Part shown: piece after piece, positions 22,099 through 40,148 of the stretch
Position numbering within the stretch: position 1 is the stretch's first letter
Layout: each line of letters opens with the position of its first letter
Assembly (NCBI RefSeq): GCF_000300975.2
Contig: NZ_AEEC02000007.1
Coordinates: 124,001 to 188,000 of the forward strand
Length of the DNA: 64,000 nucleotides
Direction: 5' to 3'
Source: Herbaspirillum frisingense GSF30
GTDB taxonomy: Bacteria > Pseudomonadota > Gammaproteobacteria > Burkholderiales > Burkholderiaceae_D
Made by a program: the position numbers and the translations under genes
The notes under the pieces: model-generated
Databases searched by the model: none
Told to the model about the DNA's origin: nothing
Seen by the model: the letters and a program-made list of their open reading frames with translations, nothing else

Positions 22099-22123
22099 GT
22101 AGACTCCTTATGGACTTATTGAA

Positions 22124-27330: not shown

Positions 27331-29401
27331 ATGGCCACTTCCACCGGCACTATCTCCACCTCGGCAGGCCCGCTTGACGTTGCGACCCTGGTCAGCCAGC
27401 TGATCTCGGCGGAAAGCCAGTCTCAACTGACTCCGCTGACCACCCAGGCCAGCAGCTACAACACCCTGATCTCGGCGTACGGCAGCCTCAAGAGCGCGCT
27501 GTCGACCTATCAGTCGGCCATCAAGGGGCTCAGTGCAGCCAGCTTCAGCTCCCAGAAAAGCAGCGTCAGCAATGCCGGCACCGGTAGCAACCTGACCACC
27601 GATCCGTTCACCGCCGACGTCAACAGCGACGATTCGACCAAGATCCTGGCGCAGAAGATCAAATCCGAGGGCGTCACCAGCGGCACCACCTTCAGTGCTG
27701 GCGACTCGCTGGCGATCAAGATCGGCACCAACTCGCCCACCTTTATCACGCTCAAGGCCAACTCCACCCTGGCAGGCGTTCGCGACGCCATCAATGCCTC
27801 CAAGGCTGGCGTTACTGCCTCCATCGTCACCGATGGCAGCGGCGATCACCTGGTGCTGGAATCGAATACCGGCGGCACTGCCAATACCATCAAGGTCACT
27901 GCCAACAATAGCCTGTCCCGCTTCGCCTACGATCCATCGAGCTCGACGCCCAGCACCACCACCCAGATCCAGGCGCCGCGCGATGCGACCAAGGCTGCCT
28001 CGGGCACCTATTCGGTTGGCGTGACGCAACTGGCGCAGACCGCCAAGCTCAGCTCGGCCAGCATCACCCCGGGCAGCACGTTTGAAAATGGTCTGCTGGC
28101 CATCAAGACCGGCACCGGCTCGACGACCATCATCAAGCCGTCCACCAATAGTCTGGCCGGCATTCGCGATGCCATCAACAGCAGCGATGCCGGCGTGAAC
28201 GCCACCATCGTCAGCGACGGCACTAACGACCACCTGGTGCTCACCGCCAAGGACAGCGGCGCCACCAATACCATCAAGGTCACCGGCACAGCGGACTTTG
28301 CCGTATTCAATTCGGATCCGAGCGGTACGGTCACTACCCCCAATGTCAGCAATAGCCAGCTCTATACCACTGGTACGCTGAACCTGAAAGTGGGGGACAG
28401 CACCATCGCCATCAACCCGACGGCCAATGGCAGTGGCGACATCGACCTGACCCAGGTCATGACCGCCATCAATGGTGCGGGTGCCGGCGTGACCGCCTCT
28501 ATCACCAACGACGGCACCAATAGCCGCCTGGTACTGACGCCGAACGCCGCGAACGCCACGGCTTCCATTTCCCTCGCGGGCAGTGGTGATTATTCGGGTC
28601 TCAGCGCCAGCGGCATGGGACAGTTGCTCAAGGCGCAGGACGCCAAGCTGTCCATCGACGGCGTGACGGTCACCAGTCCCAGCAACAAGGTAGAAAACGT
28701 GATTTCGGGTGTGACCCTGAATCTCTCCAAGGTCACCACCTCGGCAGACGATTTCACGCTCAACATCAGCAACGACACCACCGGCCTGACCAGTGCGGCC
28801 AACACGTTCGTCTCCGCCTACAATACCCTGGCCAAGGCGATCGCCAGCATGACCGCGCAGACGCCTTCGACCACACTGGGCCAGGCCAATACCTCGGCCC
28901 CCCCTGGCCAGCGAGTCGTCGGTTCAGACCATCTTGACCCAGTTGCGCAACACCCTGTTCTCCTCGGTGGACGGTGGCAATGGCATCAACACGCTTTCCG
29001 ACATCGGCATCGGGTTCCAGAAGGACGGCACGCTGGCACTGGACGCAACCAAATTGTCGACCGCGGCCACCAACAATTTTGCCGGCATCGCCAACCTGTT
29101 TGCCGGCACCGACCCGGATACGACCAACACCACGTCCTCCAAAAATGGTATCGTCACCAAGTTGACGACGCTGATGACGAACCTGTTGAGTGACACCGGC
29201 ATCATCGCCACCAAGACCAACGGCCTGCAGGCCAGCCTGAAGATCAATCAGGATCGCCAGACCGCAGTGCAGACCCGTTTGTCCAACATGAAAGATGCCT
29301 ACACCAACCAGTTCAACCAGCTCAACATCACGCTGGCCAGCATGCAATCCACGCAAAGCTACCTGACCCAGCAACTGGCCAGCCTGGCCAAGAGCAGTTG
29401 A
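27331..29401 (+). CDS. fliD: Flagellar filament cap FliD, interrupted by an apparent +1 frameshift
   Basis: FliD caps the growing filament and folds flagellin into place. Codons 1-523 read in one frame from ATG 27331 and show the FliD N-terminus (GPLDVATLVSQLISAESQSQ) and three repeated flagellin-IN-type modules near residues 143, 271 and 371. After a run of seven C at 28898-28904 the frame becomes unrelated. The true C-terminus, SVQTILTQLRNTLFSS through QSYLTQQLASLAKSS, continues in the +1 frame to 29401. Removing one C restores a 689-residue protein with TSAPLASESSVQ at the joint. As written, translation would run on to a stop at 29193 and lose about 165 C-terminal residues, including the coiled-coil needed for capping. 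Confidence 0.88.
28898..28904 (+). repeat. Run of seven C at the fliD frameshift
   Basis: CCCCCCC lies exactly where the fliD frame breaks. With six C the gene is intact. Such a tract can slip in replication (phase variation) or be miscounted in sequencing. Confidence 0.85.
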
Positions 29402-31411: not shown

Positions 31412-31742
31412 TATCCCGCTGCAAAACGCCGTCGCGCTGGCCTACAATGCCAGCCAGGGGGCGCCCCAGGTCGTGGCCAAGGGCCGTGGCCTGGTGGCCG
31501 AAGCCATCATCGCGCGGGCCAAGGAAAGTGGCGTCTACGTGCACGAATCCAAGGAACTGGTTTCCCTGCTGATGCAGGTCGAACTGGACCAGCAGATCCC
31601 CCCCGCTCTCTACCGCACCGTGGCCGAACTGCTTGCGTGGCTATATCGTATTGAAAATATGCAATTAAGTGAGTCTGTGATGTATGATACTGGGTTAAAT
31701 TATTCCAATAATTTCCCCGGGGAAAGCGAGCCCACTCGCTGA
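31398..31742 (+). CDS. Small FlhB C-terminal-like protein (FhlB/EscU-type)
   Basis: The 114-residue product resembles only the cytoplasmic end of FlhB: LQNAVALAYNASQGAPQVVAKGRG, then EAIIARAKESGVYVHESKELVSLL and QIPPALYRTVAELLAWLY. It has no membrane helices. The NPTH self-cleavage motif is absent; the equivalent place reads GAPQ. Similar short proteins, called FhlB or FlhX, can partly replace the FlhB C-terminal fragment in some bacteria. ATG at 31398 overlaps the FliK-like gene by 14 bases. Its last 30 codons are strikingly AT-rich compared with neighbours. Confidence 0.8.
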   Translation: MEKPNIPLQNAVALAYNASQGAPQVVAKGRGLVAEAIIARAKESGVYVHESKELVSLLMQVELDQQIPPALYRTVAELLAWLYRIENMQLSESVMYDTGLNYSNNFPGESEPTR

Positions 31743-36136: not shown

Positions 36137-36838
36137 ATGCGTGCAAAGATCATTCCCAAGGAAGAGATGACGCCCTACCAGCGCTGGGAGCTGGCGTCCT
36201 TCCACGACGAACCCGAACCGGAGCCCGAACCGCTGCCGGTAGAGGAAGAATTCCTCGAAGAACCGCCGCCGGTGCCACAACTGACGGCCGAACAGCTCGA
36301 CGCCATCCGCGAAGCAGCGCGCCAGGAAGGCTTCGCCGAAGGTCGCCAGCACGGCCTGCAGGCCGGTCGCTCAGAAGGCTACATGGCCGGTCTGCAGCAA
36401 GGTCAGCAGGAAATCAACGAAGTCATCCAGCATTTCCGCCAGATCGCGGTCAACTTCAGCACCGAAGTCTCCCAGTGCAGCGAACGCATGGCCCCCGAAA
36501 TGCTGGACCTGGCGCTGGACCTGGCCAAGTCCATGCTCAAGACCGCCCTGCGCGCACGCCCGGAACTGGTCCTGCCCACCGTCAGCGCTGCCATCCACGC
36601 CCTGCCGGTGCTGCAACTGCCGGCCAGCCTGACCCTGCACCCGGAAGACGCCGCCCTGGTGCGCGAGCACATGGGTGCCGAGCTGGCCCAGCAAGGCTGG
36701 AAGATCGATGAAGATGCCCAGATGGACCGCGGCGGCTGCCGCGTCGAAACCCGCACCAACCAGATCGATGCCACCACCGAGACCCGCTGGAAGCGGCTGG
36801 GCGAATCGCTGTCCAAGCAGCTCGAATGGCTGGAATGA
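36137..36838 (+). CDS. fliH: Flagellar assembly protein FliH
   Basis: FliH holds and regulates the FliI ATPase at the export gate. The 233-residue product has a Pro/Glu-rich N-terminal segment, then a glycine-repeat helix pattern AARQEGFAEGRQHGLQAGRS, continuing to YMAGLQQGQQEINEVIQHF. The conserved C-terminal domain (ALDLAKSMLKTALRARPEL, ILHPEDAALV-like LTLHPEDAALVREHM) follows. It lies 38 bases before fliI. Confidence 0.95.
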   Translation: MRAKIIPKEEMTPYQRWELASFHDEPEPEPEPLPVEEEFLEEPPPVPQLTAEQLDAIREAARQEGFAEGRQHGLQAGRSEGYMAGLQQGQQEINEVIQHFRQIAVNFSTEVSQCSERMAPEMLDLALDLAKSMLKTALRARPELVLPTVSAAIHALPVLQLPASLTLHPEDAALVREHMGAELAQQGWKIDEDAQMDRGGCRVETRTNQIDATTETRWKRLGESLSKQLEWLE

Positions 36839-36876: not shown

Positions 36877-38283
36877 ATGAACTCCCCGATGCCATCCCAT
36901 AGCAGCCTGTGGCAAGCCTATCTGCACAACTGTCGCAGCCTGGTGTCCATGGCTGAGCCGACCATGACCGCCGGCCGCATCACCCGCGTCGCCGGGCTGG
37001 TGATGGAAGCGGTCGGACTGAAGCTGCCAGTGGGCAGCCCCTGCAACGTGCCCCTGCCCAATGGCACCATGATCGAAGCAGAAGTCGTCGGATTCCAGGA
37101 CGATCGCCTCTTCCTGATGCCGCAGAGTGATGTCGAAGGCATCGTTCCGGGCACCCGCGTCTACCCCGTCGAACCCGTACGCCCGCCCCCGCGCACCGGC
37201 CCCATCAGCTTTACCCCGCGCCGCATCGACGAACACAGCCGGCGCCTGCCGGTCGGCGACGAACTGCTGGGCCGCGTGCTCGATGGCGCCGGCCGCCCGC
37301 TGGACAACCTCGGCCCGCTGCACACTGAAAGCTCGGCGCCCCTGGGCGTACGTGCCGCCAATCCGCTGGGGCGCGCGCCCATCCGCGACATCCTCGACAC
37401 CGGCATTCGCGCCATCAACACCATGCTGACCGTCGGCCGTGGCCAGCGCATGGGCCTGTTCGCCGGCTCAGGCGTGGGCAAGAGCGTGCTGCTGGGCATG
37501 ATGGCGCGCTACACCAGCGCCGACGTGATCGTGGTCGGCCTGATCGGGGAACGTGGTCGTGAGGTCAAGGAATTCATCGAACAGATCCTGGGACCGGAAG
37601 GCCTGGCACGTTCGGTGGTGGTAGCAGCCCCCGCCGATACCCCACCCCTGATGCGCCTGCAGGGCGCGGCCTATTGCACCTCGATTGCCGAGTATTTCCG
37701 CGACCAGGGCAAGGATGTGCTGCTGATCATGGATTCGCTCACCCGCTATGCCATGGCCCAGCGCGAGATCGCCCTGGCCATCGGCGAGCCGCCTGCCACC
37801 AAGGGCTATCCACCTTCCGTGTTCGCCAAGCTGCCGGCACTCGTGGAACGCGCCGGCAATGGCGACGAAGGTGGCGGCTCCATCACCGCCTTCTACACCG
37901 TGCTGACCGAAGGCGATGACCAGCAGGACCCCATCGCCGACGCCGCCCGCGCCATCCTGGACGGCCACATCGTGCTCAACCGCCAACTGGCCGAAGCCGG
38001 CCACTACCCGGCCATCGATATCGAGCAATCCATCAGCCGCGCCATGCACAGCATCACCGATGCCGATCACCAGCGCCGCTCCCGCCACTTGAAGCAGTTG
38101 TACTCACGCTTCCAGCGTAACCGCGACCTCATCAGCGTGGGCGCCTACGCTGCCGGCAGCGACCCCATTCTGGACGAAGCCATTGCCTTATTGCCAAGAA
38201 TGGAAGCCTTTTTGCAGCAAGGTATTCACGAGCAGGCCGATGTATCAGAGAGCTTGAGGCAACTTACCGCTCTATTCGGGTGA
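36877..38283 (+). CDS. fliI: Flagellum-specific ATPase FliI
   Basis: FliI drives substrate unfolding and entry at the type III flagellar export gate. The 468-residue product is F1-beta-like: Walker [14 protein letters not shown] at about 195-205, Walker [19 protein letters not shown] near 285, and the export-ATPase [19 protein letters not shown]. The N-terminal beta-barrel domain is present. It is 38 bases before fliJ. Confidence 0.98.
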
Positions 38284-38320: not shown

Positions 38321-38762
38321 ATGGCTACTCCCTCCGCACTTGATACGCTGATTGAATTGGCGACCAAAGAGACCGACGATGCGACCAAACGCCTCGGCCG
38401 GGCTTATTCGCGTGAGTGAAGAAGCACAGCAGAAGCTGGGCATCCTGCAGCAGTACCGCGACGACTACGCGGCCCGTTTCCAGGAAACCCTGACCAATGG
38501 CTTGACCGCGCTGGCCTATCGGAACTTCCAGTTGTTCCTGGAGAAGATCGACAACGCCATCGACGGCCAGCAGGACGTGGTGCGCAGCAGCCAGCAACGC
38601 GTGGCCGAGGCGCGTGCCGCCTGGCAGGCCTGCGAGCGCAAGCGCATGTCCTACGACACCCTGGCCACGCGTGCCCGGGACAAGGAAATGCGCAAGGAAA
38701 GCAAGCGCGACCAGAAGTCCATGGATGAGCACGCCGCACGCATCAGCTTCTACAAGCGCTGA
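38321..38762 (+). CDS. fliJ: Flagellar export protein FliJ, interrupted by an apparent +1 frameshift
   Basis: FliJ is a coiled-coil stalk that couples FliI to the export gate FlhA. From ATG 38321 the frame reads MATPSALDTLIELATKETDD and KRLGRA, the expected N-terminus, then stops at 38419. The rest (RVSEEAQQKLGILQQYRDDY to HAARISFYKR) is in the +1 frame to 38762. Removing one T of the pair at 38404-38405 joins them as LGRAIRVSEEA and gives 146 residues, close to the E. coli length. As written only about 32 residues would be made. The spacing after fliI is 37 bases. Confidence 0.85.
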
Positions 38763-38855: not shown

Positions 38856-40148
38856 ATGAATACTTCCCTGCCGCTGTTGAACGTCATTACCGGCTCGCAA
38901 GCCGCCACCGGTTCGCGTTCCGGCAATCCTGCCGACAGCTTCACGGCCGACGCCCCCTTCAACCAGGTGCTCAACAGCCAGGTGAACTCGCGCAATCAGG
39001 AACAGCAGTCGCAAGCCAAGCCACAAGCTCCGCAGCCACCGGCCGCGACCAACCAGGCTGCACAGAATGATGCTGCCAAGCAGGCAGCGGCCACCAAGAC
39101 CGAATCAAAGCAGGACGTTGCCGACCAGAGCAAGGAAAAGGACGAGGACAGCGACGACACCACCACTGCCGCCTCCGCCGAGCTGCTGGCGCTGGTGGCC
39201 AACATCGCCCAGAACGCCGTCAAGCCGGTCGGCGAAGGCAAGAGCGAAAATACCGAGGCCGATCTGCTGGCCCAATCCAAGCGTAGCGGCGCTACGCTGT
39301 CACTGGCCGACCAGCAAACCCTGATGGCGGACGGCAAGCAAGGCAAGATCGACCTGGCCGGCCTGCAGGACGCCATGGCTGCCAACAAGCTGAAACAGGA
39401 AGGCCGCGACCTGAGCCGCAATGCCAGCGGAACCGAAGCCAATCCCTTGGGCCAGGAAAGCGCCAACAATGGCAAGAGCGACAAGCCGGCCCTGGACCTG
39501 AGCGCTGACACCAAGGCCGCGCCCAAGGAAGATGCCAGTGCCTTGGCCGCTGCCCGCGCCCAGACTGGCAAGGTCACCGCCGAAGCCGTGACGACCGCCA
39601 AGCAGGACCTGCCGCAAACGACACCGGCCCCGATCGTCGTGCCTGCCATCCAGCAGACCCTGGCCGCCAGCCAGCCGCAAGCCGTCTTCGCCAACTATAC
39701 CGACAAGGTGCAGCCCAATGTCGGCAGCGCCGGCTGGGACCAGGCCGTCGGCAGCAAGATCACGTGGATGGTCAGCGCCGGTATGCAAAGCGCCTCCCTG
39801 AGCCTGAATCCGCCCGACCTGGGCCCCATGCAGGTGGTGCTGAACGTGCACAACCAGCAGGCTGACGCCACCTTCATCACTGCCCAGCCCGAAGTGAAGC
39901 AGGCGCTGGAAGCGGCCATGCCCAAGCTACGCGAAATGATGGACCAGGCTGGCATCCAGCTGGGTCAGGCGACCGTCAATACCGGCATGCCCAATCAGCA
40001 GCAGGGCAACACCGGCCAGCAGCAGGGCCGCTCTGCATCTGCCTCCGGCAGCTTCGGCAAGGATCAGGAAGGCGAACTGGCCGTCAACGCTACCACCACC
40101 ACGACCGCCACCACCAGCGGCTTGGGCCTGGTAGACACCTTCGCCTGA
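38856..40148 (+). CDS. fliK: Flagellar hook-length control protein FliK
   Basis: FliK measures the hook and switches export from rod/hook to filament substrates by acting on FlhB. The 430-residue product has a long Gln/Ala/Lys-rich ruler region and the C-terminal Flg_hook domain (about 285-375). That domain contains MQSASLSLNPPDLGPMQVVL, the diagnostic LxLxPxxLGxxxV, then AAMPKLREMMDQAGIQLG. A Gln/Gly/Thr-rich tail follows. It is the canonical copy, in the usual place between fliJ and fliL. Confidence 0.95.
   Translation: MNTSLPLLNVITGSQAATGSRSGNPADSFTADAPFNQVLNSQVNSRNQEQQSQAKPQAPQPPAATNQAAQNDAAKQAAATKTESKQDVADQSKEKDEDSDDTTTAASAELLALVANIAQNAVKPVGEGKSENTEADLLAQSKRSGATLSLADQQTLMADGKQGKIDLAGLQDAMAANKLKQEGRDLSRNASGTEANPLGQESANNGKSDKPALDLSADTKAAPKEDASALAAARAQTGKVTAEAVTTAKQDLPQTTPAPIVVPAIQQTLAASQPQAVFANYTDKVQPNVGSAGWDQAVGSKITWMVSAGMQSASLSLNPPDLGPMQVVLNVHNQQADATFITAQPEVKQALEAAMPKLREMMDQAGIQLGQATVNTGMPNQQQGNTGQQQGRSASASGSFGKDQEGELAVNATTTTTATTSGLGLVDTFA

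Follow-up and report, generated by a model that had tools for sequence, protein, structure and literature searches.

The flagellar gene fliJ of Herbaspirillum frisingense GSF30T is divided between two reading frames in the genome assembly, which raises the question of whether the strain itself carries a broken fliJ, whether the break exists in the assembly only, or whether the gene might work in spite of it. In the flagellar export ATPase ring (FliH-FliI-FliJ), FliJ forms the coiled-coil stalk; it is placed in the FliI hexamer and links the ring to FlhA (PMC7911332, PMC4905995). Here we examine the break within a 64-kb window (the whole stretch of 64,000 nucleotides that was analysed, to whose numbering the coordinates below refer), compare the locus with those of relatives, and weigh the possible readings. 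The genes fliD and fliH to fliK discussed below, with their parts, all lie on the forward (+) strand.

Reading frames of fliJ in GSF30

fliJ sits between fliI and fliK, in the gene order fliH-fliI-fliJ-fliK that its assignment as FliJ requires. Its neighbours fliH (36137..36838), the export ATPase gene fliI (36877..38283) and fliK (38856..40148, with a Flg_hook domain) are intact, as are the further flagellar genes examined, including flg, flhA, flhB and che. A short protein encoded at 31320-31742 matches the C-terminal part of FlhB only (PF01312 positions 258-335); its gene is distinct from the full flhB, is intact, and contains an in-frame run of seven C (C7) at 31598.

The 5' part of fliJ (38321..38419) comprises the native ATG, 28 native codons, four aberrant residues (YSRE) and a TGA stop (38417-38419). 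The native ATG at 38321 forms the best ribosome-binding-site-like duplex among the candidate starts (-5.8 kcal/mol), and translation from it gives the 32-aa product MATPSALDTLIELATKETDDATKRLGRAYSRE, instead of a single uninterrupted frame of ~146 aa. The gene leaves its frame after codon 28, at the TT pair 38404..38405 that holds the single extra base; the local sequence at about 38396-38419 is ..CGGCCGGGCTTATTCGCGTGAGTGA, in which GSF30 reads CTT and same-genus relatives have one base fewer. Native FliJ residues resume at I29, from 38406, and continue for 118 codons in the open frame 38352..38762. This body frame scores 101 bits against the Pfam FliJ family PF02050 (cut-off 28.4; profile positions 13-121 of 123), which places it in the family, and it is the sole PF02050 match in the whole GSF30 genome. 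The 32-aa peptide gives no score against PF02050. A 9-base direct repeat, GCGACCAAA, with a spacing of 21 bases, is also seen in the 5' part of fliJ (window 38360-38389); it falls in conserved coding sequence and is probably due to chance.

The body frame thus belongs to the same family as Salmonella FliJ (PDB 3AJW; PF02050), from which GSF30 differs in having the native N-terminus and the body in separate frames. Residues 1-143 of the closest relative's FliJ match the solved structure 3AJW, and the FlgN-FliJ fusion structure 8FTX includes the N-terminus of FliJ (residues 1-51). Since both structures include the N-terminus, the out-of-frame part belongs to a folded, interacting protein. An earlier, sequence-only reading of this DNA had placed the FliJ N-terminus and body in different frames after codon 28, and the translation and the PF02050 match in the body frame bear this out. 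It had further held that only a 32-residue peptide is made; the stop after codon 32 stands, but the claim passed over candidate starts in the body frame at TTG 38352, ATG 38379 and GTG 38412.

Comparison with relatives and the second break in fliD

A DNA search of 40 related genomes located fliJ in 24 other genomes of the same genus, and these loci were aligned. The extra T at 38404/38405, previously proposed from the sequence, is present in GSF30 only, all 24 relatives being one base shorter, and the insertion is therefore private to this genome. The comparison with fliJ of close relatives that had been suggested as a check finds the FliJ frame open in 24/24, encoding 146-151 aa, and 141 aa where it meets the edge of a contig. 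Relative to the closest relative compared, Herbaspirillum sp. AP02 (fliJ locus 93 per cent identical), 18 of the 22 substitutions in fliJ fall in the third codon position, as do 138/159 in fliD, a bias which shows that purifying selection acted on the two genes until very recently. As judged from these alignments, the fliJ frameshift is private and recent. fliJ shows two marks of a recent loss-of-function mutation (pseudogene): the disruption is strain-private, the relatives being intact, and no decay of the rest of the gene was seen.

The second break, in fliD, lies 9.5 kb away in the same pathway. As read in GSF30, fliD (27331..29193) has 524 native codons followed by aberrant residues, and this 620-aa ORF retains the N-terminal FliD domains and the first part of FliD_C only. 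The second half of FliD_C lies in the out-of-frame rest of the gene (28934..29401), native from about 28901, and what is one 689-aa FliD in the closest relative is here divided between the two frames. The +1 frameshift falls in a C7 run (28898..28904), at which all aligned loci of relatives are one base shorter, with the run interrupted in most. In GSF30, the C7 was created by substitutions closing the interruptions found in the relatives. Like the fliJ frameshift, that of fliD is private and recent. A second +1 insertion in fliD had been noticed from the sequence, together with the statement that every other gene in the window reads through, and both observations hold: fliD and fliJ aside, no gene in the 64-kb window is broken mid-frame relative to the closest relative.

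Sequencing error, residual function or mutation

The GSF30T genome was determined by 454 sequencing at 48x and Illumina sequencing at about 420x, giving 93 contigs over 200 bp and about 5.4 Mb (Straub et al. 2013, PMC3695564). The assembly that contains the fliJ break has 5,408,328 bases in 93 contigs. nifH is present in the GSF30 genome, as expected of a diazotroph, and GW103 has no match over the cut-off.

Frameshifts were surveyed against the closest relative in parts of contigs C86, C87, C88, C93 and C65 (about 11 per cent of the genome), in a set of 554 genes whose divergence is codon-like (585 kb of coding sequence), and flagged cases were judged by codon-position bias and translation. 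The convincing mid-gene frameshifts among the 554 genes are those in fliD and fliJ only. About 20 more genes called broken automatically were rejected: they are ORFs that begin upstream of the true start, frames that overlap, or intergenic sequence. A candidate for a third frameshift outside the window (C87:122401) is a one-base difference that falls in a gene leader, that of a permease-like gene on the minus strand. Within the window, a T is inserted at 22116 in the CTTATT context also seen in fliJ, upstream of an rpsF-like gene on the minus strand; this difference belongs to the closest relative, because a second relative has the same form as GSF30.

The survey included 485 coding homopolymers of five or more bases, 70 of them of six or more. 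Just one of the 70, the fliD run, alters the frame of a convincing gene; the 69 without such an effect include the other C7 run of the window (31598), through which the FlhB-like gene reads. General sequencing trouble is made unlikely by the finding of fliD and fliJ only among the 554 genes, with no other homopolymer of six or more changing the frame of a convincing gene. For two random breaks, the chance that both would fall in flagellar or chemotaxis genes is near 0.5 per cent (0.005), a value computed after the fact from a rough count of ~40 such genes among the 554. A recent functional loss in the sequenced lineage would fit these results better than general sequencing trouble.

It is nevertheless conceivable, if somewhat unlikely, that the extra T in fliJ and the extra C in fliD are present in the consensus only, the genes of the strain being normal. 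H. frisingense is described as motile, with polar flagella, as would be expected in that case. A few assembly errors are not unusual in a 5.4-Mb draft, and two breaks per 585 kb is a rate that a few such errors could also attain. The use of 454 reads, which are prone to homopolymer miscounts, and the position of the fliD break inside a C7 liken GSF30 to other assemblies with 454 homopolymer errors, and the authors of PMC3695564 judged the flagellar set complete. Several features set GSF30 apart from such assemblies, however: at fliJ the run has two bases only (TT), unlike the homopolymers that 454 misreads; Illumina reads were added at about 420x; the fliD run is alone in changing the frame of a convincing gene, with no like errors in the survey; and both breaks affect one pathway.

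The suggestion that fliJ still works, through an internal start or reinitiation yielding an N-terminally altered FliJ that is partly or wholly tolerated, appears improbable. Such a product could be made in the body frame, open from 38352. The candidate internal ATG (38379..38381) would give 127 aa, the first nine aberrant, and is preceded by a weak ribosome-binding-site-like AAAGAG (-2.9 kcal/mol), and the candidate reinitiation GTG (38412..38414, native V31), which would give a 116-aa product, is 2 bases ahead of the premature TGA. The cost would be 28-30 native residues at the N-terminus, a segment that the genus conserves and that falls in the part of FliJ shared with 3AJW and 8FTX, and fliD would stay unrepaired. 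Programmed +1 frameshifting through fliJ as a regulatory device has next to no likelihood: such sites need halves that overlap in adjacent frames, and the two halves of fliJ do so, but a device would be conserved, and fliJ is continuous in all relatives (a frame break at this site in 0/24). The site reads GGG CTT ATT in frame, which resembles no +1 shift motif known to us. Very improbable, too, is a reversible motility switch by slippage in the fliD C7, with fliJ as a bystander or as a second lock-off that came later in the sequenced line. The substitutions that removed the interruptions of the relatives would have raised the slippage rate of the tract, but the C7 is short for a contingency tract and is missing in relatives, and fliJ, lacking a tract, would not revert together with fliD.

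A probable loss of motility and its meaning for users of the strain

The recent, private insertion in fliJ and the break in fliD together probably represent a loss of motility in the sequenced culture. In this explanation, a recent strain-private one-base insertion would have separated the FliJ body from its native start frame, leaving the sequenced GSF30T culture with no normal FliJ; with fliJ and fliD both frameshifted, the cells would most likely have no working filament and would not swim. FliD is the filament cap, and its loss by itself should block a normal filament. Loss of motility is often favoured or neutral in rich laboratory medium, and after the loss of either gene the other would have been free to break. 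Weak export remains when the ATPase complex is absent (PMC7911332), so that a defect in fliJ on its own may be leaky.

A comparable case is Campylobacter jejuni NCTC 11168, whose stocks diverge; the paper describing this also notes a cost of flagella in batch culture (PMC6700657). The likeness lies in stocks of one strain losing motility or gaining flagellar frameshifts, and the difference in that the GSF30 case is known from one genome sequence alone. We infer that, most likely, the cells do carry the breaks, that these originated in culture, and that the strain is non-motile. The sequence-only reading had left two possibilities, that a laboratory line lost its motility or that sequencing was locally at fault. 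The survey favours real mutation; it does not distinguish a laboratory from a natural origin. A search of the literature on H. frisingense motility and on Herbaspirillum fliD or frameshifts gave nothing direct, including no report of the sequenced GSF30 culture as non-motile.

A one-base frameshift is missed by tblastn unless it is looked for. GSF30T was said to have the "entire flagella machinery", and the flagellum was argued to matter for plant colonisation (PMC3695564); contrary to this complete set, the assembly has frameshifts in two flagellar genes. GSF30T is the type strain of a species serving as a model grass endophyte. If the breaks are real in the stock, colonisation and immunity experiments with it may have been carried out on a non-motile variant; in the case of errors, the GSF30 reference needs correction. 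Either way, the finding is a strain-quality matter for users of the strain, and an event of a known kind that brings no new biology.
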